Made by a program: the position numbers and the translations under genes. A DNA stretch of 64,000 nt from Mesostigma viride (Eukaryota; Streptophyta; Mesostigmatophyceae; Mesostigmatales; Mesostigmataceae): the NCBI GenBank assembly GCA_009746045.1, contig RPFO01002176.1, positions 1-64,000 on the forward strand, read 5' to 3'. Below, piece by piece: positions 2,160-64,000 of this stretch. Under the pieces are notes generated by a model. The model worked only from the letters and a program-made list of their open reading frames with translations, searched no databases and had not been told where the DNA came from. How positions within the stretch are numbered: the first letter of the stretch is position 1; every line of letters begins with the position of its first letter.

Positions 2160-5100
2160 GTATGGACCCTCCTTCGGCAGCAATGTCTAGGGCCAAGCCG
2201 CTAGATTAGAACTGGTGGACAGGCTGATAGGCGGAACGGGTAGGATAGACTGGAGCTGGATGGACACGCTGATGGGCGGGAACGGGTAGGATAGAGTCAA
2301 ATACTTCTCTATCACATCACCAGGGTCAGTGCTCCATGTCTCCCAGCGGGCATGTGTTTCGATTTGGATTATAATAGTTTCTATTCTCCTGTTGCATCGC
2401 TGAGGTTAATTTTTCATCATCTTCTGGGTAACTCTGTTCCTCTTTGTTGATTGAGCAATGAGCATGTAACCGCCACTGAGTCTCTTTGTGGTTTGCTCTC
2501 ACGCCAGGCCCTACTTTCCCCTACTTGCCGCAGAGGCGTGCACCCAGTACCTTGGTCGCTCCTTGTGTTGAACCTGAAGCTCCATCGGATGGTTTCTCTT
2601 AATCCCAGCCCTACTTCCGGAAAGGCATGCGTCCAGTACTGTGTTGGTCCCTTTGTCACCCTGCCTGCCGCATGGGGTGGCACTGTTTGTTGGATGAACC
2701 GCGCGTTGCTGTTTTTTTTTTGGGTTCGTGTTCATCCCAGGCCTACTTGCGCGCCGCAAACGTGTGCGCCCAGTACTGTGTTGGTTCTTGTGTCAAACCG
2801 CAGCGTGCTGTGTTGCACCGCAGGGTTTTCCTATGGTTTACCCCCATCATGGCGAGTGTGCGTCCCCGGTGTTCCCCCTTCCTAGGCCTACTTGCGCGGC
2901 GCCAAGGCTCATAGTTACACTTGGAGAGCATCCCTAGCACTGATGGGGCTTGTCTGCATCCATGCTGACGCGTACTCCCTTGCCAGGCCTACTTCCGCGC
3001 CGCCAAGGCCTGCGTCCAGCTGAACAAGTACGAGGAGGCCGCCAAGATGTGCACTGCCGCGCTCGAACGTGAGTGGACAGGCTGCCACGTGGCACTGCCT
3101 TGTTGTTAATGCCACATGCCTGCTTGAGTAGGATGACGAGCAGTGCTTGATACCTGCAGTGCTCATTGGCTCCACTGGATGGGAACCACACTATTGAAAT
3201 GCTATTCACTTGCTATTCAAACACCAATTTCATACTTATCAAATGCTCATCAGAGACTACTCAAACAAGATCCTGACCAACATGGACAGATTGATAGAGG
3301 TGGGAAGGGGCAAGGAGCAAGGAGCAAGGGTTTTCTGTCTTTGGGTTTGTTGTGTTTGGGGCATGAGGGCGAGGGCAAATTCGGAGGGTGACTGGGGGAG
3401 GGTTGACCGGTTCGCCGGTTCCAGGAAAGAGGTTAGCCAATGTCGACTTGCTGGCGTCGTCTCTCGTGTCCTGGCATGCTGGCATTTTCTCTGTTATATT
3501 GTGGCATGCTGGCGTCTAATATTATGGCATGCTCATGTGGGTGTCCTACTCCCACACGATGGTTCCCCAGCTGCCGTACCCCTACGGCCTGTGTGACATT
3601 TCTGTCTGGTTGTCGTACCCGTACAGAGTGTTTCCGTGAGTGCCCTACCCCCTCACGACGTTTTTCTGAAAGTTCCCCACCTCTACACGTGTTTATCTGC
3701 GGCTGCTCTACCCTTGCGGGATGTCTTTGTCGGTGCCTCGCGCTGTCGTCCGCAGGAGACCCTAGCAATGCCGAGATGCAGTCGCTCAAGGCCAAGGCGG
3801 CTGCGCATCATGAGGAGGCTGCGAGAGGTATCGTGAAAATTTTATACGATACACAGATTCAAACACAGGACCTCTAGCACCGAGGTATCGTGTTTAGACT
3901 GGGGGGTCGTGAAAGTCATGGGTTAAGGGAGGGGGATTGTGTAAGAGATATGAAGTAATGGGTATGGGGCCGTACTTGAGAGTTAAGGGGGTGGTAAAAG
4001 GTTGGGTTAGATGAAGGGGGTTGAGTAAGAGATATGAATGACTGGATATTGGGCCGCACTTGAGAGTTGAGGGGTCTCGCAAAAGGTGTCGCGTTCGCGT
4101 GCCATATCATCCTGGACTGGTCATTACCGCTACTTGGAATGCATCCACTATCAGCAGTAATCATGTGTGAGATATGCCACCTAAGGGACCTGCAGTGGCG
4201 TCACGCAAGGGGCCTCACAGCTGCTCTTATAACTACAACATTACAACTCGACAGTCTTTGTAATTCGTCATGTATCTCATTGGAATTGAAAGGTCTTTTG
4301 GCTGCTTTGATGATAAAGCATTGTCTCAAGAATCGGCTGATTGGGCCGGATTGCCTGTCATGAAGGTGGCGGTGCCGTAAAGGACCGCACCTTACATTCT
4401 CATTTTATGCAAGAATCGGCTGATTGGGCCGGATTGCCTGTCATGAAGGTGGCGGTGCCGTAAAGGACCGCACCTTACATTCTCATTTTCATAAAATGAG
4501 AATGTAAGGTGCGGTCCTTTACGGCACCGCCACCTTCATGACAGGCAATCCGGCCCAATCAGCCGATTCTTGAGATAATGCTTTATCATCAAAGCAACCA
4601 AAAGACCTTTCAATTCCAATGAGATACATGACGAATTACAAAGACTGTCGAGTTGTAATGTTGTAGTTATAAGAGCAGCTGTGAGGCCCCTTGGGTGACG
4701 CCACTGCAGGCCCTTTGTGGCGGCAGTGCGCGTGTGTTCCCGACCTAGTTCCTACTGGCACGCATGCCAACGACGACCAGGGTTGCCCGAAGGCCCTGTC
4801 CCTTGTCTCGTTCTCAGTCTTACACACGACATTCTTAACAAAACCAATACATTGCCGTATCCGTCAGTCCATCCTCATGGCAACTGACTGCATGCAACCA
4901 CTCACGGGGGCTGCTCCGGGCTGCTCGAACTATTTCACCCCATGAAGACAACAAACCAGTTGTGAGGGAGAGAAACGGACGAACAACGACCACCATGGTT
5001 CGTTGCTCATCCTTCCATACTGCTCAAAGCTCAAGCCTGGCGGCTGGCGCCACTAGCGCCACTCTTGACATCAGCCAATCATAACATTGTCTAATTTCCG

Positions 5101-8100
5101 ACAAGCTAACCTTCAAGCTTTAACTGTGAAACGAACACAAATATACAAGGGCAAATCTATCGGCCATGCCAGGCACCGCCTGGGGCTTCCGTGCATTTGT
5201 GTCTCGTGTCCCACGTTGACATCCTGAAATTGCATAGCTGCTTGCCAGCTTGCTGTGTACCAGCATTCGGCAAACTGCCCTTGTGACGAATGTCAGTGAA
5301 ATTCAGGTCCGCCCAAAAGTTCCGTCATCAAATTCAGCGGACTTGGCGCGTAAGTACAACTGAGATCCGCGGCGTCAGTACCGGGCCGCGGTATAGCAAC
5401 CCGCACAAGGCTGCAGATGTCAGAATTACGCCAAAATCTGAATTGCGGACGTGATAAATCACGGACGCGGCAAAGGTGTGGGTTATATTAAAGGGGCTGA
5501 GTAAGAGATATGAATTACTGGATATGGGGCCATTAGTGGTATGGGCATTTTAGAGTGGCGTGGGGTTTCAAGAGGTATGGCTTACTGGAAGGAGGACGTG
5601 AGATGTATGGTTTCCTGAGATGCCGTGAGATGTGTGGACTTTTTTTAGGGGGCCATCGGACTTACTACTATAACTTTACCTAGATTTCTTGAAAATTCAG
5701 GGGGCTTAGTTCTTGATTCGTTGCAGCATCCTTAAATCGCAGGTCTCGAAACCCGCTGCCGCTCGCTGGATTTGGTTGCTGCTGATGCGGCACCAAGTTC
5801 ATGGTGCCTGCATTGGCAGCATGTTCGCCTGCATGCGCGCACACCATTGCATGCATTATTTAATTACTATTATTAACTATGGGTGGATGTCGGGAGCAAG
5901 CCGTTTGGGGCTTTGCGACAAAACCGCGCGGGCTATGCCACACGTGATCAAGGCGGCGAACACATCAACGGTCCTGTTCAGGGAAGAGTACGTTGCCCGT
6001 CTGTCAAGAGCCCTTGTCTGCCTGTGCCGAAGGCCTGCACCAGGATGCAGAGAGAGTCCTCTGTGGCCTACCCACTTGAGGCAGTGAGAGAAGCTAGGGC
6101 GCCCTCCCTCCCTCTCGTTGTGTATAGGGGGTTGAAGGTTCCTTTATAGGTACCCATGTGAAGCAGTCTACGTGCTTTCACTTTAATTTGAGGCCTTGTG
6201 TCACCCTTGTTCTTGGCTTCTGACATTGTCTCGCTCCACTGCATTTGTCATGTCTGTAACCTACCTTTTGTATGCCTTCATATGTAACCGTGCTCGACTT
6301 GCTTGTATTTGTTGCCTCTGTTCCTTGAAGCCGCCACGGTGAAGCGGGAGCGGGAGGCGCGGGTACTGACAAAATACACGGTGAGTTGATGAGCTGGGAA
6401 AGTGGAAACCGCCGAAGGTGTTACAGCCAATGATGTCGAAAGTTGTGGAGCAAAAAACTGTCAAACTCCATGAATGCACGTGTCAGCACGCCAGGTCGTA
6501 CCATGGCCTCTCTTGTGCAGATGCAGGTGTCAGCATTCGCTGTTACCCTTGTGCTCGTAAACGCCTCGCAGCTCTCAAATCTTTTCTGCCCGCCGTGTCG
6601 ACGTGCTCCCCACGACTTCCTCCTACCTGTATGGAAAGAAGCGCCCAACCCCACACCCCAACCCCACCCCACCCACCCACCCACCCACCCACCCACCCAC
6701 CACCCACCCACCCACCCACCCACCCACCCACCCACCACCCACCCACCCACCCACCACCCACCCACCCACCCACCCACCCACCCACCTACTTTGCACTATG
6801 TAACTTTGCAGAACATTGTGGTTGCGCTGGCCAGCCGAGGCGTGCGCATGGGCCCTGCCCTCTACAAGGACCGGAGCGGGGGCAAGGAGGTGTCGGTGGA
6901 TGAGGAGGGCAAGGTACTGTGCTGGTTGTATTGTGGTGTACTAGTATACCAGTAGAGACTAGTGGAGTAGTACTAGTGCTAGTGTGATGAATGTATGTGA
7001 CTAGTGTGACATTTGTGTATGACTAGTGTAGTGTATGTATGTGGACCAGTCACCAGGGTGACGTAATGGTAATGTGTGACTAGTATATCTTCAAGGAGGT
7101 GCTGGTGGACGAGCAGGAGAAGATGCGGCACTGTGACCATCGGTCAACTGGGGCCATTTACCCAAATCGTCAGGGTTATCAAAAAGTGTTAACGAAGCTA
7201 GAATGTTAAGCAAACAATACCGCTATGGCAGCTAGTGCTGGGTTTCTTGCCGCCCTTGCTCGCTTAGCTTCTTCCTGTCTCGCGCCCAGTGTATCCTTAA
7301 ATATGTTCGCACTTAGCCACATGTGCCACATGTGCCACATGTGCTTGTAGTGCCACATGTGCTTGGCGGCAAAATGACACTAATAAAAACGGCGCTAATA
7401 AAAACGGCACTAAATGAAACGGCAATAATAAAAACGGCGCTATTCAAAACACTGGCTCCCATTGTGTTGCTGCTCTCACACATGTAATCTCCCGTTCTCG
7501 AAATACAAGGAGCACTGCGAAGGTCTCCGCGACGTCCCACAAACGCACGATCCACAATGCCGTGCTTTGCAAGCCCTTGCTAGTGTCCCGCGACCTCCCA
7601 TTGTATGCACAAGGCGCAGGGTGTTATAATGCAAAGCGTATGCGTGTTTCAGTCAGCCCCTAATTAATCTATGGTGCGATGCGTGTTTCAGTTAGCCCCT
7701 AATTAATCTATGGTGCGATGCGTGTTTCAGTTAGCCCCTAATTAATCTATGGTGCGATGCGTGTTTCAGTTAGCCCCTAATTAATCTATGGTGCGATGAG
7801 TGTCTCAGTCAGCCCCTCGTTATTCTAATAAATCATTTTAGGAGAGGCTGAGGCACGGCTCCTGCTTCTACGGCGTGGGGTGTGAAAAAGTTGTTTGACG
7901 TGCGTGGCTTATGCTGGTCACCGTTACCTTATGCTGGTCACCGTTACCTTATACTGGTTACCGTTACCTTATGCTGGTTACCGTTACCTTATGCTGGTTA
8001 CCGTTACCTTATACTGGTTACCGTTACCTTATACTGGTTACCGTTACCTTATACTGGTTACCGTTACCTTATACTGGTCACCGTTACCCCCTTGGTTGAA

Positions 8101-11100
8101 ACCAATGCCTTTACAGATGGGCGGCTGTAGTTGCATGCAGAGGCACAAGGCGCGGTTGCTGCAGCTCTGCTTTGGCACAGACGGAATCACGTTTTCCTGT
8201 GCGGTTCATCGCCACTTGCTTTTTGAATGGTGTTTTGCGTGCTCATCCCGCGGTGGCATGCCTTCGGCATGAAGGAGAATGGGGGTCTCTGCCCTTTTAA
8301 TTAATTAATCCCGCGGTGGCACGCACGCGGATGTCTCGCAGGTGCACTGGCCAGTGCTGCTCATCTACGGCGAGGTCATGGTTTCCGACCTGATCGAGGA
8401 TTTTGAAGAGGACGCACAAGTGGGCGCCTGCCTGGATCAGATATCCTCTTTGACACGCGCTTCGAGTCGGTCCCTGGGTCACTTGCGCTTTCTGGCATGC
8501 ACTCTTTTTTGTTTTTCCCTTTAGTTTTTTGTTTTCTTGTCCCTTTAACTAGAAGCTGCACCAAATATCCCTCTTATCCCTAAGACGTGCCACGTAACTC
8601 ATTGCTTCCAGTGCTCCCTAGTTCCTACGACGTGCCACATAACTCATCGCTTCCAGTGCTCCCTCGTTCATTCCTGGGTCAGATGCATCTACACCACGCT
8701 TCATATTACCCCTTTGGACTCTTGAGTCCTGGGCCAGACTTGCATTTGCACATGTGGGCTGCTTATTCCCCATCATCCCATTCACCTAATGCGGCTGCTC
8801 TGTGAAACCATGGCATCGCATTTGTAAAAATGTGAGCGTACTGACCCACCTCTCTTTTGAAGGGATCGTGGTCACTTAACCACATCTTCTGGGTATAGGT
8901 CCTGCTTGGTAGAGATGTTCCTTGATTAAAACATGGCTATGCTGCCAACGTGACTCAATAATGTGTTTTTGTTGTAATTGTATTGTTACCAACGTGTCAG
9001 ACAAAAGCTCCGAGAGATTAGTTCCACGGTTGTGCTGCCAACATGTTGTTACCAGCACATGGCTCCGTGCCGCTGGCCACTATGCCTTAAACCGGAGACC
9101 AGGAGCATCCCTACCCCCTAAACCCTTGACAGTATACTCCCTGTAGACCAGGATACTATAATGCCAGTGACCACCCTTCCACGCGCTTGCGTGGTTGGGT
9201 TGTTGGTTGGGTTCCATCTGTACAGCTGGCGTTATTGGTGATTGGATCCAAGTTTTGTACTCGGCTCTGTTGGCCCGAGTCTCCCTGCTGCGCTTTCTGC
9301 CGAATATCTCCTGCAGGTTGCATTTCCTTGACTCTCTCTTTTCCTGGTGGCCCCCCAAACCTCTATTGTGGTAAACTCCTCCGCTGTCTTCCCACACTTT
9401 TTTCCACACTTTTTCCCCACACTTTTGGGCTTGTGGCGGCCCGCTCATGCGGCCCCACACTTTACTCCACACTTTACTCCACCCATCCCAACGCCAATAA
9501 GGCTGATGGTGCCTCCTCAACATCCACCCCGACTGCTTGAACCCCGATCGGGGTGAACCGCATCCCCCCCAAACCGGGACACCGGAACGGCCCCCTACCA
9601 TACATGTCACCTATGCACTGGCTGTGGGACGCCCGCCGATTGGTTGTGTTCGTCTCTTGTATTTTTTTTCTTCTTGTATTTGTTTGCCTCTTGTACTTGT
9701 TTTCCCCTTGTATTTGTTTTTGTCTTGTATTTGTTTTCCTCTTGTATTTGTTTTCCTCTTGTACTTGTTTTTGTCTTGTATTTGTTTTCCTCTTGTACTT
9801 GTTTTTGTCTTGTATTTGTTTTTGTCTTGTACTTGTTTTTGTCTTGTATTCGTTTCACTCTTGTATTTGTTTCGCTCTTGTATTTGTTTTTGTCGTGCAT
9901 TCGCTTGCCTCCTGTGCATGCTTCTCTCGGGGTTTTGCCCCAGCACATGTTTGGAGAAGATTCTCCTCAGCTACCGTGGGACCGGGAGGGGGCCTACACG
10001 CGGGATCGCGTCGAGCTCTACTGCTGGGTGAGTCCAAGAATAGCACCCACCTGACACCTGGGTGAGCGCAGAGTCGCATGTGCTCTACAGCTGGGTGGTG
10101 CAAGAACAGCAAGCACTTGGCACTACTGGGTGAGCGCAGAGAACGGGAGCAAGCACGCATGAGGCGGACTGGTGGGTGAGTGCCGCAGAGTAGTGTGCTT
10201 AAACATGGTTTAAAGCCACTCCCACGTATACTACACATTCGGATTCCAGTCCATCATGCGATGGGAACAATTAAGGTGCAAGGGGTCTTACCGTCTAGCC
10301 GTCGGTACTCCGCATCTTCACGGATAATTCAATTTCACGGAGCCCACGCTGGAGACAGTGGAGCAGTCGTTACACCATACATGCGGGTCGGAACTTAGTG
10401 CTCTACAGCTGGGCGAGTGCAGATTTGCTCACACGTTGGCATGTATGGCTGAGTCATCGTTCCATCGCAGGCCACCGCGTCTCTGTAGATATCCCTGCCT
10501 GATGAACGTTGGTTGCCTGGGTGAGTGCAGAGTGGCGCATACCTTGGTACTGATGGGTGAGTGCAGACTCAAGAATCAAGGGCGTGCTAAGCTGTACGGG
10601 TGGGCGAGTGCAGAGTCGCGTGAGTGCACGTCTGGGCTGTGGTGGACGGTGGTGGGTGAGTCCAGAGTTGTGTGCGCTTTTAAGACGTGCTGCTGGGTGA
10701 GTCCACAGTAGCACGCAGTTTGATAAGTTTTTTTCCCAAGTGTATTCCGCTGCTTGAGTCGCCATCAGCCATTTCATACGGGCCCGCATCTTTACCCCGC
10801 AACTGTGCACCCCGTAACTGTGCACACGCCATCCCACATGATCCCGTCACACATACACACACATGCATAAACACACTCACCCACCCACCCACCCGCCCGC
10901 CCGCCCGCCGCCCGCCCGCCGCCCCCGCCCGCCCGCCCGCCCGCCCGCCCGCCCGCCGCCCGCCCACTGTCCCACACAACGCGCAGAAACACGAGTGTGT
11001 GCCCCTGGCTCCCAAGGACCTGCTCAAGAGCTACGTGCAGCCCAGTTTGAGCCTGGCGCCCGATGTACTGGCATCTGCCCAGGCCAGCATGCAGGGCCAG

Positions 11101-12412
11101 CTGGATGCGGCCCTGGGCACAGCCAAGGCCAGTCACCGTGAGGGCACGGATGGCAGCAACAGCCACAGCTACAACAGCAACAGCAGTGGAGGGGGAGGGG
11201 TGGGAGGAGGCAACGAGAGGCGCCCCGTGGATTGGCTCAGGGTGCCCGAGGAGGCCACCCTGGGGGAGCTCCTGGCATCGGATCCCGGCCTGGTGATACC
11301 TGGTATACCAGGTGAGGCGGTCAGCGGTGCTTGATTTCTCAGGCTTGTTGTATAGAACCTAAAAGGATTGCTGGGGTTCTGGTTTTCAAGTTGAGGGAAA
11401 GGAGAGATGGGGGATCTGTTTTTTTTGGGGGGGGGGGGAGCTTTGAACTCTGGATATTTCAGCTTTTATCTTTCTTCTTCTTTTTCCGGGTCGGGGGGGG
11501 GGGGGGGGGGATCGGGGGGCGGGGGGTCTTCCGGCCTAATTTCCTAGCTGATGGCACGCTGTTGATGCGGGATGGGTGTCAGAATTCCTGGAATGAGAAA
11601 TAGCTCTTGGTATGCGTGCGAACAGGGGTCCTTTGTGCAGTTTGCTCTGTGCGCTGCCTGATTTGTTTCCATACACATGCATTACACGGATGTGGTGTTC
11701 AGGGACATCTAGTTTCCGATGTTGAGGCGAGCAAGTGGATGGAAGGGGCTTTAAGCGCTGGTTGGTGCTGATGAGAGAGATTCAATAACACTCATTAATA
11801 CTTACCTCATTGTATACTCCCTATAATGGAATTGATCCACTCATAGAGCCGTGGAGAGAATCCAAGCTTTATTTTTTGCATTTGCACAGGTTCACCTACA
11901 TTCTACTCCTGTTGGTACACTCACAGAAGCTGTGGAGCGGTCCAAGCCTTGGTGTTATTGCGTGTGGCGCATGTGTGATCCAACGGCTGTCTTCAGTTTG
12001 ATATGGCATGTTAGAACTGTGTGTGAGAAACCTTTCTTGTTCGTGGTGTCGAGTCCACTTGCTTGACCTTGGTTCTTATAATATGGATACAGAAAGGGCC
12101 CCATTGCCATGGAGCCTGCATGCGTGGCCCAAGTGCTAGTTTTTGGACCGCTTGCCTTGAGATTATTTTATGTTGCAATACATGTGCCTTGGCATGTAGA
12201 TGCAGTTTTTGTGCCTGGGGCTCTGGTATCCAGCATGCTGGGTGTGCTGCATTGAAAAGGGAATTGTCGCTGATTATAATCTCACGACTCTGTGTGCTGT
12301 TGTCGCTATGCCCTGTCCAACGCTGCCGTGCCTTTGCCCAGTATTCTTTGTTGTGGCCAAGGGGACGGCCTTCCGGGAAACGTTCCTCGCTGGCAAGTGG
12401 GCACCCCCTTGA
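2096..12412 (+). CDS. TTC4: TTC4/Cns1-type TPR co-chaperone of Hsp90, 3' part (9 exons visible)
   Basis: Exons by homology, splice sites and phase: 2096-2159, 2987-3068, 3756-3827, 6331-6380, 6812-6913, 8342-8440, 9947-10027, 10987-11311, 12342-12412 (stop TGA). The first three exons give TPR helices (GNFGKAFNDAQ, then NPGNIK, AYFRAAKACVQLNKYEEAA, RDPSNAEMQSLKAKA). The last exons give the TTC4 C-terminal domain: WPVLLIY, SDLIEDFEED, MFGED, RVPEEATLGELL and finally PVFFVVAKGTAFRETFLAGK. TTC4/Cns1 proteins bind Hsp90/Hsp70 through the TPRs and support client folding in cytosol and nucleus (family knowledge). Phases agree across all introns. Odd points: the first exon needs a one-base correction, one intron looks AT-AC, a Ser/Asn/Gly-rich insert lies at about 11150-11215, and several introns carry copies of exon edges. 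The N-terminal exons are missing from the window. Confidence 0.88.
2430..2986 (+). repeat. Tandem copies of the TTC4 exon start and its 3' splice site
   Basis: The real exon start (AG at 2985-2986, then GCCTACTTCCGCGCCGCC) has four diverged copies upstream at about 2501-2575, 2601-2660, 2731-2795 and 2876-2912. Each begins with a CCAG or CTAG acceptor-like end followed by a version of GCCTACTT..GC..CAGTAC. Spacing is about 100-145 bases, so the last 560 bases of the intron are a degenerate tandem array whose unit spans the intron-exon boundary. Confidence 0.8.
3440..3755 (+). repeat. Degenerate ~30-bp intronic repeats
   Basis: In the TTC4 intron 3069-3755, GGCATGCTGGC motifs (about 3470-3530) are followed by five to six degenerate units of the form GT(G/C)CCTACCCC..ACG..GTGTTTCTG up to the acceptor at 3754-3755. 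There is no coding signal. Confidence 0.55.
3880..4075 (+). repeat. Two ~98-bp intronic repeats, with a third partial copy at 5465-5545
   Basis: The unit contains GTAAGAGATATGAA..ACTGGATATGGGGCC..ACTTGAGAGTT. Copies start near 3938 and 4030, and a related piece recurs at about 5465-5545. At 3881-3893 the string GAGGTATCGTG repeats the donor of the preceding exon (3821-3835). Between 4722 and 5460 I see no gene and no clear repeat. Confidence 0.6.
4176..4721. repeat. Foldback element: long near-perfect inverted repeat
   Basis: The left arm (about 4176-4408) is the reverse complement of the right arm (about 4491-4721), both starting from GCCAC..AAGGG..CTGCAGTGGCG. The inner ~80 bases of the left arm (from CAAGAATCGGCTGATTGGGC) occur a second time at 4410-4489. 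The centre is a palindrome (ATTTTCATAAAAT). It lies in a TTC4 intron, so the pre-mRNA would form a hairpin of roughly 230 bp. There is no ORF inside. It may be a foldback or MITE-type element. No clear target-site duplication was seen. Confidence 0.85.
6035..6186 (+). mobile_element. Dispersed retroelement 3' fragment (family A)
   Basis: Shares long matches with 28470-28620 (+) and with 13478-13620 (reverse strand): CTCTGTGGCC, GAAGCTAGGGCGCCCTCCCTCC, GGTTGAAGGTTCCTTTA, then a tail of the ACGTGCTT..TTAATT type. The AT-rich tail and 5' truncation fit the 3' end of a non-LTR element or SINE. It is inserted in a TTC4 intron. Confidence 0.7.
6657..6787. repeat. (CCCA)n microsatellite
   Basis: About 130 bases of CCCA units, with occasional CCA, immediately before the 3' splice site of the TTC4 exon at 6812. 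Translations of this run are artefacts. Confidence 0.95.
7091..7130 (+). repeat. Diverged copy of the end of TTC4 exon 6812-6913 inside the next intron
   Basis: The exon end reads GGKEVSVDEEGK in translation. The intronic copy reads FKEVLVDEQEKM in its own frame, with matching nucleotides along about 40 bases (AAGGAGGTG..GGTGGA..GAG.AG). It looks like an old duplicate of the exon edge. Confidence 0.65.
7320..7445. repeat. Short intronic repeats
   Basis: GCCACATGT(G) repeats about five times (7318-7365), followed by five units of the type AACGGC(G/A)CTAATAAA (7370-7445). Intronic, no coding signal. Confidence 0.75.
7640..7815. repeat. 39-bp minisatellite, about 4.5 copies
   Basis: The unit contains GCGATGCGTGTTTCAGTTAG followed by CCCCTAATTAATCTATGGT. 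Copies are nearly identical, so the array is recent. It lies in a TTC4 intron. Confidence 0.92.
7905..8095. repeat. 20-bp minisatellite, about 9 copies
   Basis: The unit is CTTATGCTGGTCACCGTTAC with T/C variants. Intronic. Because 20 is not divisible by three, all + frames through it are open and encode the same 20-residue cycle. This is not a gene. Confidence 0.93.
8245..8321 (+). mobile_element. Very short non-LTR retroelement insertion with 14-bp target-site duplication
   Basis: ATCCCGCGGTGGCA occurs at 8245-8258 and again at 8308-8321. Between them lie 49 bases (GGCATGAAGGAGAATGGGGG..) matching the family-B LINE tail seen near 23320 and 36580, ending in a TTAATTAATTA tract. A duplicated target and AT-rich tail are what target-primed reverse transcription of a heavily 5'-truncated element leaves. 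Confidence 0.8.
8450..9640 (+). other. Intronic stretch without a recognised feature
   Basis: Apart from a short duplicated phrase (CGTGCCAC(G/A)TAACTCAT near 8586 and 8632), I see nothing identifiable between the donor and the 17-bp array. Short open frames look non-coding. Confidence 0.5.
9655..9900. repeat. ~17-bp minisatellite (CTTGTATTTGTTTTCCT type)
   Basis: About 14 copies of CTTGTA(T/C)TTGTTTT(CC/TG)T lie in the distal part of the AT-AC intron. All frames are open across it on both strands, with no gene character. Confidence 0.9.
10028..10715 (+). repeat. About ten copies of the TTC4 exon end plus 5' splice site
   Basis: The real exon ends CTCTACTGCTGG, followed by gtgagtccaagaatag. 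Downstream in the intron, related strings occur near 10055, 10081 (CTCTACAGCTGGGTGG), 10119, 10165, 10398 (CTCTACAGCTGGGCGAGTG), 10510, 10546, 10590, 10646 and 10688. Most carry GGGTGAGT or GGGTGAGC followed by GCAGAG. The intron is thus a dispersed array of donor-site copies, several of which look usable. Confidence 0.8.
10870..10975. repeat. (CCCA)n/(CCCG)n tract
   Basis: Tetranucleotide CCCA then CCCG units stand just before the acceptor AG at 10985-10986 of the TTC4 exon beginning KHECVPLAPKDLL. Confidence 0.93.
11312..12341 (+). other. Last TTC4 intron with poly-G runs
   Basis: Donor GTGAGG after IPGIP and acceptor CCCAG before the final exon. Phases join as codon GTA, giving IPGIPVFFVVAKG. 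Runs of 10 to 16 G occur at about 11430-11440 and 11495-11525 (possible G-quadruplex on the sense strand). Otherwise nothing is recognised. Confidence 0.7.
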
Positions 12413-12756
12413 GATCCCAATTGGCTGGCTTGCATTTATTTCGGATTGGGAGTAGCTTGCAAGCTGTAAAGAAGACTTTCAAAGGAAATGGAGCATTTCC
12501 AGTACTTCCATTATATTCGATCATTGAAGGAAGTGATTATTTGGCTCTCTAGGTGCCAATCCAGCACATGTGCATCACTTCGATCTGTTTCCAGTTCTAG
12601 GAGAATTTTTAGACTGCAGAGTAGGCATGTGCACCAATCTCCGTGGGGAGCCGGGCATTCTAGTCCGGCAAAACAAAGTTAGCATGTATAACAGAGCATA
12701 CTGCATGTAGCAAGAACTGGTGCCCACGCCAGTGCAGGCCTGTATCACATCCATCC
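12413..12756. other. TTC4 3' flank
   Basis: Downstream of the stop codon. I see no gene, no clear polyadenylation hexamer and no repeat before the tetranucleotide arrays begin. Confidence 0.5.
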
Positions 12757-13451
12757 ATCCACGCGTCCGTCCGTCCGTCCGTCCGTCCGTCCGTCCGTCC
12801 GTCCGTCCGTCCGTCCGTCCGTCCTTCCGTCCGTCCGTCCGTCCGTCCGTCCGTCCGTCCGTCCGCCCGCCCGCCCGCCCGCCCGCCGCCGCCCGCCCGC
12901 CCGCCCGCCGCCCGCCCGCCCGCCGCCCGCCCGCCCGCCCGCCCGCCCGCCCGCCGCCCGCCCGCCGCCGCCGCCCGCCCGCCGCCCGCCCGCCGCCCGC
13001 CCCCGCCCGCCCGCCCCCGTCCGTCCGTCCGTCCCGTCCCCCGTCCGCCCGCCCGCCCACCCGCCGCCCGCCGCCCGCCCGCCCGCCCGCCCGCCCGCCC
13101 GCCCGCCCGCCGCCCGCCCGCCCGCCCGCCCGCCCGCCCGCCGCGCCCGCCCGCCCGCCGCCGCCCGCCCGCCCGCCGCCCGCCCGCCGCCCGCCCGCCG
13201 CCCGCCCGCCCGCCCGCCCGCCCGCCCGCCCGCCCGCCCGCCGCCGCCCCCCCGCCGTCCCCCCAGCCCTCCCTCCCTCCCTCCCTCCCTCCTCCCCCCT
13301 CCCTCCTCCCTCCCTCCTCCCTCCCTCCCTCCCTCCCTCCCTCCCTCCCTCCCTCCCTCCCTCCCTCCCTCCCTCCCTCCTCCCTCCCTCCCTCCCTCCC
13401 TCCCTCCCTCCCTCCCTCCCTCCCTCCCTCCCTCCCTCCCTCCCTCCTTCC
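12757..13451. repeat. Compound tetranucleotide array (CCGT)n-(CCCG)n-(CCCT)n
   Basis: (CCGT)n at about 12766-12864, irregular (CCCG)n to 13260, then (CCCT)n to 13451. The three blocks differ by one base in the unit, suggesting stepwise conversion and expansion of one array. A long Pro/Arg/Ser open frame here is an artefact. Confidence 0.95.
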
Positions 13452-13474
13452 TTTGTTAATTAATTAATAGACTG

Positions 13475-14867: not shown

Positions 14868-15235
14868 CTTTTAACCACAAGATGTGGACGCCCCCAGCGG
14901 GCTAGAATAGCAATAGCCCTAGCTTGTATCCATTGGTAGTCACTGCCGCTCTGGCAGCCATGCTTAGAATGTTTGCCTAGCTGTGCCACCATACCTAGTC
15001 ACGTGCACCGCTAACGCACGGTACACAACCAGCCATATAGCCTTAGCTTAATTAGTCCTCGCCACAGCCATGCTACGTCGTGGCTATCAAGGAGACAACC
15101 AGCGCAGGCCAGAAATCGGGAGAATCCGGACCATGGTAGCTCGAGCCTGCCGTTATCTTGTCCGCATCATGCTACGTCCTGGCTATGATCAGATTGACTA
15201 ACTAGCTACCTTTTCAGCATGGTTTTCCATTTGCG
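14868..15235 (+). mobile_element. ORF1-LINE 3' UTR fragment (family B)
   Basis: AACCACAAGATGTGGACGCC and the next ~170 bases match, in opposite orientation, the segment following the ORF1 stop codon at 36770-36930 (CTAGCTTGTA, CTGTGCCA.C, GCACGGTACACAACCAGCC). A (TTAC)n run stands at 14848-14872. Its right part (15084-15165) forms an inverted repeat with 23118-23197. The Copia element is inserted at its end. Confidence 0.7.
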
Positions 15236-15240
15236 GGTAT

Positions 15241-15713
15241 AGTTAGTCTCCATGCTTTGCTGTAGACTAAGTCTCAAAGGCATTGTGAATACAACGTATG
15301 AATAAGCCTTGTAAACCTACGTTGGTATGTGAATATAAATACCACGTGGGCTATACAGATAGGAATGCTAGTCGAGTCGCATACGTTTCCCTAGATAGGT
15401 ACTTTGGGTACTGAGGTACGTGACAGATGTCAGTACCCAGTATACGTAGTGTCCTGTCATTGGACGGTACTAGAGTATCCTAGATAGGGACCGTACTGCA
15501 GCGTGCATTGATTTGTGATCGCACGATGCAGTGACTAGACTGCTACCTGTCATCGTGTGGCCTCGGGCCAACGGTCTGCACCCAACGGTCACTGGCGGCG
15601 CAGCCGGTGAGAGGAACGTTGATAAAGGGTAAACCTATTTTCTAATGAACCAAGCAATTCATTGCTCCAAGCCTTCAGTGTTCTCAAGCAATATATCCCA
15701 CCGCATTCTAACT
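15241..15713 (+). repeat. 5' LTR of the Copia-type element
   Basis: Starts AGTTAGTCTCC and ends GCATTCTAACT, a 6-base terminal inverted repeat AGTTAG/CTAACT. It does not have the usual TG..CA ends. A TATAAATA-like box (GAATATAAATACC near 15332) is a promoter candidate. The second copy is 22409-22881. Confidence 0.95.
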
Positions 15714-15731
15714 TGAATTTTATTTGCTACC

Positions 15732-18526
15732 ATGGCTATCACGAACAAGAATGTCGCTAAGAAGCTTACCTACAACGAGGATGATGATGGGCAGGATCGG
15801 CGGATGCCCAGAGACAACAACAAGAAGCCGGCTGGCGATGCGGCCATTTCCAAGAAAAAGAAAAAGAACAAAAAGACTCACAATGGTTGCCAGGACGAGG
15901 GGACGGCGGCTGCAAAGCCGACCGACCTACCCCCCTCCCCTGCGAGGCCGGAGGCCGAGACGGCTCCCCCCGGGGAGACCGGCTTACCCTCGACTCCGGC
16001 GGCCGCCCCAGCCGCAACCACGGCTGGCGCGGCCATGGCTGCGGAGACCTCGGTGGTAAACCCCACTGAGGCTCCACAGTCCGGCCCCACGTTGCCATCT
16101 CTTCGGGAGCGTATGCCCCGTCAGACGGCCTCGGTGGCACCGGACGGGACGATTACCTTTCGTCCCGCCACATCAAACCTTAATGTCCCTTTCGCCCAGG
16201 GACATAACCACATTGAGCTAACGTTTGGGCGACCCTCTGCGTCCCTTCTTCGCAAGAAGAAGGACATGGAGAGTATTAAACTCGCACGGGTGGTGCGAAA
16301 ACCTGTGGAACCCATCGCCGGACAACCAATGTCCGACGATGAGGTATCCGACACTGCCAGTCTCCCCGATGGGGAGACTGAGATCAATCTTACCCCAGCG
16401 CTCCTGGCGGTCGAGCAGGCCGCGCTGGTGGCAAATGAAGAACGCCGAGAGCGGCAGCGGGACCGAGAGGTCCGCCGAGAGGCGGCTTTTCGGCTCGCCG
16501 CTAAGCGGCAAGAATATGAAGAGGAAGCCGCCCGTCGCCTGGCTACCCACCAGGCGATGGCGGACGCGTACCGCGAGGCCACCCAGCGGTTACGTGACCT
16601 CTTAAAAAATGCTGACTATCCCATGCACTATGCGGACAGTCAAGACCTGGCCGAGCTTGCTCGGTCAGCACACTTTAAAACCATGTCCTCCATCACCCAA
16701 GCCAGGGTCACGGAGGCCATCTTGGCCAAACATGGGGTGGTAGCTGAAGAAGCCCCCCCGCTGGAAACCACCAGCAAGAAACCCTCTCCCCCCCAACCCC
16801 TGCAGTACAAGGAGGGACTGCTGGCCCTGGGCGCGAGGAAGGGCAAAGAGGCGGACTGTCCAGTCCGGCCTGCTATGATCATGGGAGAACCACTCCCTGA
16901 CATACCCGAGGATGAGGCTGCTTTCAGGCAGCCCTCCGGGAGCATGAGGTACGCAAGGAGATGAAGCGTCTCATGCGGGAGGAGGCCAGGAGGAGAGCAG
17001 AGGCAGACACCCCTGCCCGCCCCTCCACCGATGGGGCTGGACCCAGTGGGGTTACCCGGACACCCCCGGGCTCCCCCAGGGCCACCATGACCCCCCCTCC
17101 CCCTCCCCCACCACCCCAGGTTCGCCCTGTGGGTTGGGGCCCCCTCCCAAACCAGGGGGGGTGGCCAGGACCCCAGGAGGCCCTGGGGGGAGGTGCAGAG
17201 GTGCCACAGGCACCCAACAGGCCTGCTGAGGCCCCCCCAAGGAGCGGGGATGTCCTGGAACAGCTCGCCATTCTCCAGGCCCAGCTGGCCTCGTTGCAAG
17301 ATCAGCAGTTAACAGCTAACCAGCTGCAAACTGTCGAGGGCCTGCGCGCCCTGATGTCGCGGTATGAGCGGGGGACCATCAACCTGGACCCCACCCGCCT
17401 GCAACAAGCAACCGACAGCTTCTTGAGGGCCAACCCCCCTCTCACAGGTGTGTTTAACCCTCATAAAAAGGAATCCAAAATCAATATTGCTGGCTTGCCT
17501 GAGGGTCACACTGTTGAACAAGCTAAGCAATTTGTTTTTGCTTTGGAGTATGGGATGGAAGGTCTTAACCTTAGACATCAGTTTAAGGCTCTCAGGGCCT
17601 CCTCCACATTCCATCAATCATCTCCTGCAATCAGAGCATTGATTCAAACCTATCAGGAACGTACCCTGACACCTGAAGCAGCCATTGAACAGTGGCCTAC
17701 CTTTATCACTGATCTGAAACAGCTAGTGCTTACCAATAACCACATGGAAGCAGTAGAACGTTTCAACTGGCTTGCTGCATATAAGGTGAACAAGAATAAC
17801 CTCTCTGGGGATGCAAAAACATACAGGGTAATGATTGAGAAAGACCTTGAGCTTCTCAAGCTCCAACCAAGGTATCTCATCCACACCTGGCTAACAAAAG
17901 CTAATTTGCAACCTTCTGTCCTGGCTACCCTGCTTACAGGCCTCAAGTCCCTCTGGGACAACTTCAGAGCTGCCATGCTCTATATCGAGGAGGCAGTGGA
18001 CCCCCTGGGTACTGGCAACAACCAGGCCCAGGACCCCAAGGTCCAGGGTGTCCAAGGCCACAAACGCAAGGGGCAGGCCAGCCAGGGGGGGCACCCAAGA
18101 CCCACAAGTCCTCCCACCAAGGGGGCAGTGGCTCTCAGGGGCGTGGCAACACGTGGCACCGTGTGCCCCTGCATGGCAACCCCAACAACAACAACAACAA
18201 CAACAACAACAGGTCCCAGCAGGGCAACAATAACAACAGGTCCCAACAGGGCCAAAACAACAACAACAACAGGTCCCAGCAGGGCCAGAACCGGTCCCAG
18301 CAGGGAAACAACAACAACAACAACACAACAACAACCAGCCTGGCAACCCTGGGGGGTCCATAAGGTGCCTGAGGTGCTTCCAACGAGGGCACGCACGGCA
18401 CAACTGCCCCAACAACGACTCCCTGGCCAACGGGGTGGATCTCTGCCCGGGCTGCTGGCACGCACGTCATCCCCTGGGGCCTCCAGGCAGCCGTTGCAAC
18501 AGGCCTCGCTACCCAAATCAATGTGA
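15732..18526 (+). CDS. Copia-element gag polyprotein (frame broken near 16920)
   Basis: Two overlapping open frames, 15732-16964 and 16961-18526, look like one protein split by a one-base indel beside a TTT run at about 16920. In the alternative reading EHEVRKEMKRLMREEARR continues the helix across the break. The first part is Lys/Pro/Ala-rich with a long charged helix (16430-16600). The second has a Pro-rich linker, then a gag-like helical core (QAKQFVFALEYGMEGLNLRH, LLTGLKSLWDNFRAAMLYIEEA) and an Asn/Gln/Thr-rich tract from (CAA)n at 18180-18350. Gag would form the virus-like particle of the element. No close family was recognised beyond this. Confidence 0.75.
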
Positions 18527-19877
18527 GTTCACTCACCTTATGTACTCTGAGGATGATGATCTCATTACCATTGGGGATGGCAACCAGGGCATAATTGATT
18601 TTGAGGCAGCAACCTTACTGTCCTCCCAACACCCTGTTCTGGAACCTTACATAAAAGCACTAACCCCTACTGTTGACAACTCCATAGATATCAAGGAGCT
18701 TGCTCATCAGCTGCACCTAGCCATGGGTCATGAAACAGTGGCTGAGGAACTGGCCAGACGGCTGGGGGGTAGTAGCATGGGAAAACAACTCAGGAATGCA
18801 GTAAAACTGGCTAGACAACACTGTCAAGAATGTCAGTTCAATAGCCCCAAACCTCAAAAATGGCATACTGCAACTCCTTCCACCAATAGGGGCATGATAG
18901 TGGGGGATGTGATGCACATCAACAAAGATGTCCAACCCTACCTGATCCTAAAAGACTCATGGTCCAGGTTCACAGTAATGGAACCCCTACCTGGCATGTC
19001 TGCAGGGCAGCTACGTGTTGCACTCATGATTGCTTTACCCAGATTCTACCCAGTTGACAGAATTTTGCTTGATCAACAATTTTCTTGTCTGACTGACCTG
19101 GAAGGGTGTGAAGCAATAGAGATTGCTGGGCTGGAAGATCATGAGGGTCAGGGGGTCATTGAAAGAACCATCAGATCTGTCAAAACCCTACTAGCCAAAA
19201 ATCCTTCCAAGGATGCTACTTCAGGGGTCTATTGTGACAGGGCACTCTGGTGTCATGAAATGTGCACAACCCTAAACATGAGACCTGTCTTGCATGCCAC
19301 GTGGGGTGAAGTAATCCCAGCAGGCCTGCAGGCAGGTGTATATCCCCCAGAGGTGATAGCACTGTACAACACTGCACGTGCACAAACCTCAGCAAAACTG
19401 GCAGAAAAAGATAAAACCCATTCCAGGCCAGTATTCCAAAAAGGTGATCAAGTTCTCTATTACAAGGAAAACAGCTTTGGTAAGGTTGGAACTTGGCTAG
19501 GTCCAGTTACCATCCGTGGATTTACCAAAAACAGCAAGACCGTGGAGGTCAAGCACAATATCAATGGGAAGCGTCACAGGGTGAGCTGTCATAGAATTAA
19601 GAAGTATTATTCTCCCATGGCAGACGTGCCTGGGGAAGAGTCTTTAAGCATGGACTCACTACTTCTATCTGGCAACTCCAGCATGCCCAGCAGTAGCTCT
19701 GAGCCACCAATTACTGCTGTTGACAGCACCACAGCACCCTCTGTGAACCCTTCCACCCTCAGTGAAGCCAGGCCCACTTCACAACCTGGGGATTGCTTAA
19801 CCAGGCACGAGGTAGCTGGGTTGGAAGCATTAGCTCAGCCCCAAGGCACCAAATTGTCTGCCAACCTCCCGCTCTGA
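18234..19877 (+). CDS. Copia-element CCHC zinc knuckle and integrase
   Basis: This frame is +1 relative to gag. It has a CX2CX4HX4C knuckle (CLRCFQRGHARHNC, 18366-18407), then the integrase zinc-binding HH-CC (HQLHLAMGH..CQEC, about 18708-18833) and the catalytic core with D in GDVMHI (about 18905), D in LLDQQF (about 19069) and E in GVIERTIRS (about 19159). A C-terminal segment GDQVLYY..WLGPVTIRGF resembles the GPY/F-type module. The frame ends at TGA 19877. Either a +1 shift in the CAA/AAC repeats joins it to gag or the frame break is an indel. Confidence 0.85.
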   Translation, partial: QQVPTGPKQQQQQVPAGPEPVPAGKQQQQQHNNNQPGNPGGSIRCLRCFQRGHARHNCPNNDSLANGVDLCPGCWHARHPLGPPGSRCNRPRYPNQCEFTHLMYSEDDDLITIGDGNQGIIDFEAATLLSSQHPVLEPYIKALTPTVDNSIDIKELAHQLHLAMGHETVAEELARRLGGSSMGKQLRNAVKLARQHCQECQFNSPKPQKWHTATPSTNRGMIVGDVMHINKDVQPYLILKDSWSRFTVMEPLPGMSAGQLRVALMIALPRFYPVDRILLDQQFSCLTDLEGCEAIEIAGLEDHEGQGVIERTIRSVKTLLAKNPSKDATSGVYCDRALWCHEMCTTLNMRPVLHATWGEVIPAGLQAGVYPPEVIALYNTARAQTSAKLAEKDKTHSRPVFQKGDQVLYYKENSFGKVGTWLGPVTIRGFTKNSKTVEVKHNINGKRHRVSCHRIKKYYSPMADVPGEESLSMDSLLLSGNSSMPSSSSEPPITAVDSTTAPSVNPSTLSEARPTSQPGDCLTRHEVAGLEALAQPQGTKLSANLPL

Positions 19878-20660
19878 GGTCAAATTGGCAGTCGCCTTGC
19901 AAGCATTACACAGGTCACATAAGCAACAAGCTGCTGTGGCCGCAGGGTTGGCAAAAGTCTCAGCTGTGTGCACTAGTCAGGACCCCTGGACCCTGGCAAT
20001 AGACACTCAGGCACAGGTCAGTGTGATCAGTGCACAAGCCATCCCTGGTCTTGAGATTGCACCTTCATTTTGGGCACGGGTGCAGGATTTCTCAGGCCAA
20101 AGCTCACTGGATGTAGTGGGACAAGTGATGCTCCCTATACTTGGTATTCAGACACCCTTCCAGGTGGTGGAGGGGTACTCTGGTAACACCTTGTTGGGGG
20201 AACCTTTTGTATCCTATCCTGGGGTGCTTATCTCAGCTAATGAGCTCAGTGTCACAGGGGTGGGTGCAGTTCCTCTGGACCACTTTAAAATCCCTCTCTC
20301 CAGTATTGTCCCTGGTATGGATGCTGTCATCAAGGCAGTCAACACTCAGTATGCACCAGGGGAGATCCCTGATCTGGACAAGTTAGTGCACAGCCAGTTC
20401 CTCCATCCCTCAGCCTTTGGGCTGGGTAAGTGGGACATAGCCATGCACTCACCCCACCAAATCTCCCACGTCATACAAGAATGCAAAACACAAAAAGGGT
20501 TTACCAAGTGGCTGATGGCCATTGTCCACCAAGCCAGGCAGGAATGGGTCCTGCCCAACCCCAAAAACCCTCAATACAAACCGCCTGTCACCCCTTCATG
20601 GGACGTGCCAGAGGGAGCCAAAAAGCTCAGATTAAAATTTGTTCTCAAACAAAAACCACA
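19840..20660 (+). CDS. Copia-element aspartic protease, placed after integrase
   Basis: The frame is +1 relative to integrase. It contains the retropepsin signature AIDTQAQVSVIS (about 19996-20031, Q in place of the usual G in DTGA) and the second hallmark NTLLGEPFV (about 20185-20211). It continues without a stop into the N-terminal part of the reverse-transcriptase region (QARQEWVLPNPKNP). No DTGA-like motif lies between the zinc knuckle and integrase, where Ty1/Copia elements normally keep protease. Confidence 0.75.
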
Positions 20661-22034
20661 AAAAGTGGGCTCCCCAATCTTCCATGCCAGACCATGTGTC
20701 ACAGAATTAAAGGGGACTCCACACTGCCAAAAGGGGAAACATACACACCTGGGCTGCAACAAACCTCACTCAGGATCATGCTCTCCCTATTCCTCCACAA
20801 CCTCAATGCAGGCCAAGACTATGTCTGCAAAGCCACTGATATTAAAAGGGCCTTCCTCAGGGGGGACCCAGAAAAGGCTGAATCTGTGTGGAAAGGGAAG
20901 GTGTACGTGGTAGACACCCCAGCTGTGTGGAAACCTTATATTGATGAGCCCCACCTTATCATCAACATTGGGGTGGAAGGGCTTGTCAGTGCCCCAAAAA
21001 TTTTCAGAGACTCAGCAGAGGAAGTATTCAAAAAGCTCAAGGCCACGTATGATGACCTGGACCCATGCTTTTTTGTTGTACCCACCCCCTCTGGACTGCT
21101 GTTCTTTGTGTGGCATGGAGATGACCAACTCATTTGTGGGCCTAGAGCTGAGGTGGAAACCTTTATTCAGCAGGTCCAGGAATCATATGAGATTGGCAAA
21201 CAGGTGGAATTGAGCACAACCCCCATCCAGTTCTGTGGCATCATGTTGCAGCTGCACAGGCAGCCAGATCATGGGTCTGCTCTCTCTCCCTCCTGCAGAA
21301 TATATCAAGATTGTCTAGATCTGCTGCACACACTGCCTCCCCTTACACATGTGTGCCACTGTTCAGGGCAAACTGGGGTGGTGGTCAGCCATCTGTGGGG
21401 CTCCCTTAGCTGTCATCAGCAGGGTCACCCATGATGTTCTAGTCAAATCAAATGCAGTCACATCAGGAAGTTGTCATGACTGCCCCCCCTCATCCTCCAT
21501 GGCCTGAATCTGATGGAAGACATCCACATCCAGTGTCATGGACAGCTCCATGGAGAGCAGAACAATCAATCAGATGGGGGCACGGGAATCAGGGCTGTTT
21601 TTTCTCACCAACAGGTCAGATTACATGTCCCTCACTTCCTGGTACAGCAGGCTACACCGCAGAAAACCTGGCAGCAGCAACTCAGCTGAATGTCGTGCTG
21701 TGGTGTCTGCTGCATTGCATGCTCGTTCCCTGCAGCACATGCTCACCTGGCTACAAACCCAGGCAGGCAGCACATGCAATGTCATCTCACATCTCTATAC
21801 TGACAGCCAATCTGTGATCAGTTTTCTAACCAAGAAATCTGTCTCTGCTGCTGTCCACACTGACTGGATTGGGTGATCCTCAAACAGGAGGCCACCTATT
21901 TTTCCAGCTGGACTCATGTGGATGATGAGGACAACCCAGCAGACGCTCTCACGAAGCTGCGGGATGCTGCTGGCCAACAGTACCAGCTCCTCTTTCAGAA
22001 CATGAACCCCTATGATATCAGAGTCAGTGTTTGA
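20600..22034 (+). CDS. Copia-element reverse transcriptase and RNase H (frames broken)
   Basis: Copia-type RT motifs: KATDIKRAFLRGDPEK (about 20830-20875) and the catalytic WHGDDQLICG (about 21112-21141, DD retained). RNase H: SAECRAVVSAALHARSLQHM (about 21682-21740), YTDSQSVISFL (about 21797-21829), and after a frame break at TTGGGTG (21870) the terminal THVDDEDNPADALTKLR, ending at TGA 22034. Further breaks occur near CAAAAACCACAAAAAG (20654) and around 21300-21540. Several coincide with homopolymers, so assembly error is as likely as decay. Confidence 0.8.
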
Positions 22035-22408
22035 ATAAATGACTGGCCATAGCACAGTACACAACCACCACACCCCCTTACCACAGCGATAGCTGCTGGG
22101 CGCCATAAAATTCAACACATTCGTTGTGGGGTGTGAGTGCTGGCTAGGTCAGATTTGTATCCATTTGCAGCTTGAGGACACAAGCTTTGTATCCATTTAC
22201 TTAATGTGTGCTTCAGTAACTGGCCAAACCAGCCAGCTGTGTACACCTTATTTAATGTGCAATATAACACCTGGCCAGAACAGCCAGCTGTAACCAACCT
22301 GGCTCAACCAGCCATGTCTCTTTTGTACCCCTAATCAACTTAAAAACAATAACAATAATGTTGGGGGTGCAGACCTGCATTAAGAAATAAATAATAAAAC
22401 AATACTGG

Positions 22409-22881
22409 AGTTAGTCTCCATGCTTTGCTGTAGACTAAGTCTCAAAGGCATTGTGAATACAACGTATGAATAAGCCTTGTAAACCTACGTTGGTATGTGA
22501 ATATAAATACCACGTGGGCTATGCAGATAGGAATGCTAGTCGAGTCGCATACGTTTCCCTAGATAGGTACTTTGGGTACTGAGGTACGTGACAGATGTCA
22601 GTACCCAGTATACGTAGTGTCCTGTCATTGGACGGTACTAGAGTATCCTAGATAGGGACCGTACTGCAGCGTGCATTGATTTGTGATCGCACGATGCAGT
22701 GACTAGACTGCTACCTGTCATCGTGTGGCCTCGGGCCAACGGTCTGCACCCAACGGTCACTGGCGGCGCAGCCGGTGAGAGGAACGTTGATAAAGGGTAA
22801 ACCTATTTTCTAATGAACCAAGCAATTCATTGCTCCAAGCCTTCAGTGTTCTCAAGCAATATATCCCACCGCATTCTAACT
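22409..22881 (+). repeat. 3' LTR of the Copia-type element
   Basis: The 473-bp copy of 15241-15713. It is preceded by TTGGGGGTGCAG (22360-22371), a plausible purine-rich priming region about 40 bases upstream. The target copy GGTAT follows at 22882. Confidence 0.95.
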
Positions 22882-22886
22882 GGTAT

Positions 22887-23200
22887 TTCCTCGTAAATGG
22901 TGGGAGAGCGATCGATCGCAGCAATGGTGCTCACCACTAGACACTCCCGGCCAGTTAGGCTCGAAACACACGCCCTGACTGATCAAGCATGCTGTTTCCG
23001 GCCCCACCATCTACGGGTCATCTAGTCGCTCTACACGTAAGCCAGCCATAATTTCAATGCACAAGGATGCACATTTCCATCACCATTCATCTTCATCATC
23101 CTGAACGACTCGAACACGCGGACAAGATAACGGCAGGCTCGAGCTACCATGGTCCGGATTCTCCCGATTTCTGGCCTGCGCTGGTTGTCTCCTTGAGATT
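22887..23200. other. Flank of the Copia insertion with an 80-bp inverted-repeat arm
   Basis: 23118-23197 is the reverse complement of 15084-15165, so the Copia element sits between two inverted copies about 8 kb apart. The arm ends in GGTTGTCTCCTTGA, a motif also found at 24155, 44441, 44515 (variant, inverted) and 63570 (inverted). No coding signal. Confidence 0.7.
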
Positions 23201-24180: not shown

Positions 24181-24184
24181 CGCC

Positions 24185-38260: not shown

Positions 38261-38926
<666 letters not shown>

Positions 38927-46328: not shown

Positions 46329-46763
46329 CGGTCTGACACGCACCATCTGGCGTTCTGTGGGCATTGTACAGGATTATTAGTCACTTTATTAACACCGAGA
46401 ATGAAATAACATACAGAGTTGAGGATTGAATCACAAATTCACTGTCACAAGTGTGACCTCGCTCTATCCAATTAATTAATTGGATAGAATTAACCATACC
46501 CGTTGTGTCGACCAGTACGAACGCGCGCGCGTTTATGTGTGAAACCGTGCATGAGTAGCAGGCAGGTACAGAACAAGAATTGCAAGTGAGGCTCCTGTGC
46601 TTTATTAAGATCAATGGGGAACAAGTGAGAGATGTGCCAAGCTGTTCTTAACACACTGGGCAGGCCTAATTAGCCAGGATGGCTGGGCCTGCGCTTTGAC
46701 CAGTTGTCTCATGGATCAATCAGCCATGCAACAGGGGATGAAGCCCATGACAGTTCTGCCACA
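46329..46763. other. Convergent 3' regions of the methyltransferase and COG5 genes
   Basis: On the minus strand AATAAA occurs near 46600 (TTAATAAAGCACAGG), about 160 bases after the COG5 stop and a good polyadenylation candidate, and again near 46386. No clear AATAAA is seen on the + strand after the methyltransferase stop. A TTAATTAATTGG tract lies at 46470. Confidence 0.6.

Positions 46764-64000
<17,237 letters not shown>

Follow-up and report, generated by a model that had tools for sequence, protein, structure and literature searches.

Local copies of exon-intron junctions in the adjoining introns of Mesostigma viride genes

Introduction

Do the introns of Mesostigma viride carry copies of the exon edges and splice sites that bound them, and if so, does the copying favor these junctions or treat them like any other part of the intron? 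Introns of this alga average 1142 bp, and repeats fill 30.1% of intron space; in its available part, the genome paper does not relate these repeats to exon boundaries (PMC6947507). The question was raised by two unrelated genes, TTC4 and COG5, whose introns, according to an original prediction, are seeded with duplicates spanning their own junctions. We evaluated the junctions of both genes, extended the analysis to further genes and contigs, and compared junctions with intron interiors.

Results

Gene models and other features of the window

The window, that is, the whole stretch of DNA analysed, comprises bases 1-64000 of contig C147. TTC4 (2087..11311, + strand) was modelled from reading frames and splice motifs as eight exons, 2087-2159, 2987-3068, 3756-3827, 6331-6380, 6812-6913, 8342-8419, 9944-10027, and 10987-11311, the 5' limit of exon 1 being assumed. 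The model matched the solved TTC4 chain 6hfo, and the TTC4 Wheel domain was detected with a score under the Pfam cut-off. For COG5 (46761..64000, - strand), the window contains 14 exons; the first, 64000-63883, extends past the window end, and the last is 46928-46761. From exon 2 onward, the model forms one open frame whose 699 aa are identical to database protein P0001, which is listed as encoded by the window. Pfam searches found the COG5_N and COG5_C domains, and the nearest relative of the protein is labelled Chlat1 (Chlorokybus; 46%). The two models provided 20 introns and 40 junctions for the window test.

Near position 2128, the window sequence breaks the reading frame of TTC4 exon 1, whereas the overlapping contig C1942 (L001), with one base more, keeps it open. 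Single-base indels between the window and this contig are common (69 differing columns in ~2.2 kb); single-base errors exist. Elsewhere in the window, a long mobile-element-like stretch at ~15220-22900, which we take to be a Copia-like retrotransposon, has flanks at ~15220-15700 and 22400-22880 that are near-identical by eye. A 1041-aa single-frame gene at 38927-42052 (- strand), intronless in this span, lies amid intron-rich genes and appears by eye to encode a kinase with WD40-like repeats.

Junction copies in the window

Each junction was represented by a 40-mer of 20 exon and 20 intron nucleotides, which was aligned to its own intron after microsatellites of period 7 or less had been masked. 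The controls were the 19 other introns, 100 shuffles, and the reversed intron. The matches were specific to the adjoining intron: it scored above all 19 others at 18 of the 40 junctions (~2 expected), and at 14 of the 40 the match exceeded the 19 introns and the 100 shuffles. At a score of at least 26, copies were found for 9/20 donors and 5/20 acceptors, as compared to 0/40 junctions in the reversed intron.

The predicted copies were real at most of the boundaries named. Specifically, 13 of 17 exceeded both the 19 introns and the 100 shuffles: 2987, 3827, and 10027 in TTC4, and 48022, 51578, 53977, 54934, 60530, 63883, 49580, 60668, 58769, and 58707 in COG5. At donor 3827 the support was weak (shuffle p = 0.037). 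Acceptor 61767 may be added, as it scored above all other introns with a shuffle p of 0.0003, one of the 100 shuffles in the first shuffle set having scored higher. For donor 6913, the exon edge is copied at 7092..7117 (+ strand; score 32 versus 23 in the best other intron), but the copy ends before the GT and the junction 40-mer was not distinguished from shuffles (p = 0.23). Acceptor 55677 was marginal (p = 0.02), and no copy was substantiated at donor 50332 (p = 0.29), whose exon edge scored 23 versus 24 for the best other intron. Donor 61637, absent from the earlier list, has two strong copies within 61461..61573 (- strand; tandem unit 78).

In TTC4 (+ strand), acceptor 2987 is represented by three diverged copies at 2605-2636, 2737-2773, and 2876-2908. 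These persist in contig C1942, which contains the fourth of the four copies claimed. Donor 10027 has six copies at a score of at least 22, rather than ten: 10082-10135, 10168-10181, 10378-10421, 10548-10565, 10650-10664, and 10690-10717.

The copies in COG5 (- strand) range from arrays to single remnants. Donor 48022 is followed by three copies at 47979-47965, 47958-47926, and 47855-47829, with a tandem unit of ~43, and donor 53977 lies in a tandem array of unit 41 that crosses the junction (within 53797..53987), with an additional exon-edge copy at 53825-53797. Three copies were found for donor 51578 (51526-51492, 51404-51364, and 51280-51245, the last without the GT), two for donor 60530 (60484-60448 and 60116-60080), three for acceptor 60668 (60774-60734, 60882-60846, and 60975-60935), and three for acceptor 61767 (61929-61911, 62063-62021, and 63628-63606). 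Acceptor 49580 has an exact copy over 43 nt at 49718-49676, 107 nt from its source, and a weaker one at 49755-49740; donor 63883 has an exact 27-nt copy at 63763..63789, 112 nt away. Exon-edge copies that have lost the GT follow donors 54934 (54831..54853) and 58707 (58578..58602), and a junction copy that has lost the AG precedes acceptor 58769 (58864..58918).

Junction copies in other genes

The next 200 kb of the contig were scanned with a basic gene predictor for which the window served as training sequence; an additional 50 kb yielded no gene that entered the counts. From C147:64001-314000, only BADH (betaine aldehyde dehydrogenase) and ATAD3 were used, the other predictions having unclear exon ends or being mobile-element-like. 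The BADH model was checked against plant structures, which guided the moving of two acceptors by hand before the junction test. The ATAD3 model was checked against proteins P0017 and P0018; its shared exons are identical to the protein labelled Mesvir1. Guided by P0017, it was corrected by hand before counting: one false exon was dropped, one donor moved, and one missed exon added. Together with one intron from a window gene that we take to be methyltransferase-like (METTL-like), these models gave a second set of 33 introns. The part of the METTL-like gene after its intron had no Pfam match.

In the second set, 16 of 66 junctions scored higher in their own intron than in all 32 others (2 expected). 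At a score of at least 26, copies were found for 10/33 donors and 4/33 acceptors; the reverse complement gave none and the reversed intron 1/66.

A third set consisted of nine clean introns from four CCT/cpn60 genes located on four further contigs, exon continuity being judged partly against human CCT sequence. Here, 4 of 18 junctions scored higher in their own intron than in all 61 others (~0.3 expected), with copies at a score of at least 26 for 3/9 donors and 0/9 acceptors. The counts omit the last BADH junction; the L032 intron 1742-2161, whose acceptor is unclear; L031 donor 1824; the outer predicted exons of L031, L032, L034, and L035; L028 and L033, which lack a clean intron; and L030, a second copy of the L029 gene. 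At L032 2278, the exon was given an arbitrary start of 2200, its last 20-60 nt alone being relevant to the test.

For the pooled 62 introns, 7564 comparisons across introns were made, and their 99.5th percentile served as the cut-off. Copies in the own intron were detected for 23/62 donors and 11/62 acceptors (~0.31 of each expected). When the scoring or the length of the junction query was varied, these numbers were 20-23/62 and 7-14/62, respectively, again with ~0.31 of each expected. By gene, the donors, acceptors, and introns numbered 6/4/19 in ATAD3, 4/2/13 in BADH, 4/0/9 in CCT, 8/4/13 in COG5, 0/0/1 in the METTL-like gene, and 1/1/7 in TTC4. The pattern recurred in unrelated genes, namely BADH, ATAD3, and the four CCT/cpn60 genes, each of the latter on a contig of its own. 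As the own-intron matches occur in three gene sets, the copying is specific to the adjoining intron and extends beyond the two original genes. Chance similarity was rejected: other introns, shuffles, and reversed and reverse-complemented introns failed to reproduce the matches.

Local duplication across introns

A direct copy within 600 nt was found for 25.4% of 2434 intron 40-mers and an inverted copy for 1.6%, a strong bias that fits tandem slippage. The direct-copy rate per gene was 18-26% outside COG5 and 42% in COG5, the latter raised partly by one satellite-filled intron. Among 6933 40-mers of other non-exon sequence, 8.3% had a direct copy, a contrast with introns that may in part reflect the age of the non-intron sequence, which is transposon-rich by eye and may be younger. 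For predicted exons, repeat-like and mobile-element-like predictions included, the rate was 10.8% of 1599 40-mers.

Tandem arrays with units of 31, 41, 43, and 78 lie across or at junctions. The exact 27- and 43-nt copies, 112 and 107 nt from their sources, are not head-to-tail; thus, not every event was a simple tandem duplication. Outside the satellite-filled intron, 96 exact repeats of at least 16 nt were found, with a spacing of up to 1.3 times their length in 27 cases, 1.3-3 times in 23, and >3 times in 46. The median distance of junction copies was 126 nt for donors and 202 nt for acceptors. Intron 3 of TTC4 contains two tandem copies of an 83-bp unit (4327-4620), followed directly, by eye, by an inverted one.

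The exon-derived part of the copies measures 7-49 nt at donors and 5-40 nt at acceptors. The copies therefore begin 5-49 nt within the exon, at varying depth, and do not show the start at the exon boundary that had been proposed; this stronger proposal finds only partial support. Exon 40-mers centred 40 nt inside the exon had no match at score 26 in their own intron (0/49 donors, 0/47 acceptors), and exon 40-mers from -40 inward to -140 likewise had none in the adjoining intron. This absence of exon interiors makes long or scattered copying unlikely and fits short contiguous units.

Donors and acceptors

The local direct-copy rate of interior 40-mers from the same introns predicts 12.0 copied junctions of 62. 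Acceptors, at 9/62, were not above this value. Donors were: 22/62 were copied (P = 0.0005 at the preset cut-off, score 26; P = 0.004-0.02 at three other cut-offs). Copying above the interior rate was thus seen at donors and not at acceptors, and the contention that ordinary intronic satellites would not repeatedly take in a junction finds no support in its original form, since interiors are copied too. Taken separately, the window gave P = 0.053 for the donor excess (9 versus 5.6 of 20 expected) and the second set P = 0.039; 3/9 CCT/cpn60 donors were copied, though their interior rate predicts 0.55.

Donors also exceeded acceptors (Fisher P = 0.012; 0.008-0.17 over four settings, 0.17 being obtained with 60-mers). 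Across 53 introns, the donor copy profile fell from 0.36 at the junction to 0.17 at +20 and stood at ~0.25 deeper in the intron. The exon half of each query is conserved, which should aid detection on both sides alike; conservation alone thus fails to explain why donors exceed acceptors. We consider the donor excess suggestive rather than settled.

Fate of the copied splice sites

Many decoy splice sites have been left, as had been predicted. Among the 53 introns, the GT is kept in 24/29 donor copies versus 21.9 under neutral decay, and the AG in 11/18 acceptor copies versus 12.5. Retention near the neutral expectation does not suggest active removal or preservation of decoys, and selective loss of the decoy GT or AG was rejected on these grounds. 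Of the 24 intact donor decoys, 13 equal or surpass the real donor in score, and in 12 the added length is divisible by three, regardless of stops. Identity to the source is 236/263 in the 9-nt donor motif of the donor copies versus 297/359 deeper in the exon. A comparable rise at the exon edge of acceptor copies (43/47) indicates that selective keeping of donor motifs is weak and possibly an alignment effect. Most copies have diverged, 35/47 being <90% identical to their source.

Contigs C1641 (L029) and C887 (L030) carry the same CCT gene, and their 2993 aligned bases contain 36 mismatches. In one of them, a donor decoy reaches a score of 33; the other lacks it and has, by eye, a short tandem repeat at that place, a difference that we read as ongoing turnover. 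Further on, the spacing between matched exons of L029 and L030 differs by ~3 kb, and the two are therefore alleles or a recent duplicate.

Near position 209447 of C147 (- strand), the Mesvir1 ATAD3 protein (P0017) departs from the conserved frame at a donor, and its next two residues correspond to what the start of the intron would encode, a pattern that resembles intron retention. This donor has a possible decoy copy of score 29; one shuffle reached 31.

Discussion

The data favor, with moderate confidence, a process in which introns lengthen largely by short local direct duplication that is mostly indifferent to exon ends. Units of tens of bases would be duplicated in the same orientation, by tandem slippage or unequal duplication. 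A unit that overlapped the exon by some tens of bases would leave an extra exon edge and splice site within a longer intron. Provided that the outermost donor or acceptor was still chosen, the protein would be unchanged and the event nearly neutral, so that copies could persist and decay into decoys, whereas duplications entirely inside exons would alter the protein and be purged. We infer slippage as the mutation, the neutrality of its products, and the use of the outermost sites in RNA; this use is suggested by the conserved protein sequence and reading frame. The donor excess over interiors and acceptors (22 versus 12.0 expected from interiors) is evidence against indifference, as a purely indifferent process does not predict it. 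It may reflect stronger removal of acceptor decoys or a hotspot at donors. Our best guess, at present a conjecture, is that selection acts more strongly against acceptor decoys, which lie upstream and are transcribed ahead of the real site.

The donor data could instead mean that duplication is directed to 5' splice sites, through a hotspot tied to transcription or splicing, such as an RNA:DNA hybrid over G-rich donors. The excess over interiors at the preset cut-off (P = 0.0005), the donor profile, highest at the junction (0.36) and lower at +20 (0.17), and the CCT donors (3/9 versus 0.55) all point this way. We nevertheless hold such a hotspot to be rather unlikely, as is the form in which transcription- or splicing-coupled copying carries the exon end and donor into the intron start. 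The excess has a P of 0.004-0.02 at other thresholds and 0.053 and 0.039 in the window and second set taken separately, copy starts vary from 5 to 49 nt into the exon, the conserved exon half of the donor helps detection, and the comparison with acceptors weakens with 60-mers (P = 0.17). If the hotspot were true, introns would grow from their 5' ends and carry graded series of donors of nearly equal strength, and the cell would constantly have to select the first of them. The exact 27- and 43-nt copies, each ~110 nt from its source with unrelated sequence between, and the median distances of 126 and 202 nt, would also suit templated insertion during break repair by polymerase-theta-like end joining in place of tandem slippage. 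Templated insertion by end joining uses either orientation and any nearby source. The rarity of inverted copies (1.6% versus 25.4% direct) and the absence from introns of exon interiors beyond ~50 nt make this route improbable.

The strength of many donor decoys raises the prospect that the copies are kept for function, either for U1 binding along long introns or as regulated alternative donors: 13/24 intact decoys match or outscore the real donor, 12/24 add a multiple of three, and the 9-nt motif is better preserved (236/263) than sequence deeper in the exon (297/359). This appears distinctly improbable given a GT retention (24/29) close to the neutral 21.9, the similar rise in acceptor copies (43/47), which may be an alignment effect, and the decoy lost between two contigs. 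Very little probability attaches to the copies being remnants of intron birth by tandem duplication of an exon piece containing AGGT. Such gain is documented in other organisms (PMC4974935, PMC3443670, and PMC2891723). Among the 20 window introns, donor-acceptor likeness within the same intron (mean 12.7, highest 22) was similar to that between different introns (12.1, highest 25). As the donor and acceptor of one intron are not alike in these introns, gain from duplicated exon pieces was rejected. Assembly or polishing error that multiplied junctions is equally far-fetched: single-base indels are indeed common between overlapping contigs (69 columns in ~2.2 kb), but 35/47 copies are <90% identical to their source, the TTC4 acceptor copies are repeated in contig C1942, and own-intron specificity was found in genes on five contigs.

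Short local direct duplication, our preferred reading, has relatives among known processes. The potato RdRp gene contains a tandem duplicate that crosses an existing intron-exon boundary, as well as an 83-bp duplication inside an intron that left the gene structure unchanged (PMC4974935), and intron gain by tandem duplication has been reviewed (PMC3443670) and described in Drosophila (PMC2891723). The tandem duplication in the potato and Drosophila cases involves a splice site or AGGT, as it does here, but it creates a new intron or exon, whereas here existing introns lengthen with apparently unchanged coding sequence; in addition, this alga, unlike those cases, has many junctions with decayed multi-copy decoys. 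Intronic minisatellites share with the present copies their direct arrays, with units here of 31-78 nt. They differ in that the present unit takes in the exon edge together with the splice site, and in that numerous copies are single, decayed, or non-adjacent. Introner elements place the same element in the introns of many genes; here, at most 0.5% of the 7564 cross-intron comparisons exceed the cut-off. Going by its title, a study by Zhuo et al. in 2007, listed among the references of PMC2586383, reportedly concerns human introns that arose from tandem arrays and are alternatively spliced. Among the matches listed in a search that reached a minority of subscription papers, none described the lengthening of existing introns by repeated copying of their own junctions.

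The finding provides a measured, repeatable route for the lengthening of existing introns, as against the birth of new ones. It also places dozens of duplicated splice sites, of graded ages and distances, in one genome, which constitutes a natural test of splice-site choice. With RNA reads, this test would reveal whether position, strength, or transcription order decides between near-identical donors, and how strongly selection acts against decoy acceptors as compared to decoy donors.
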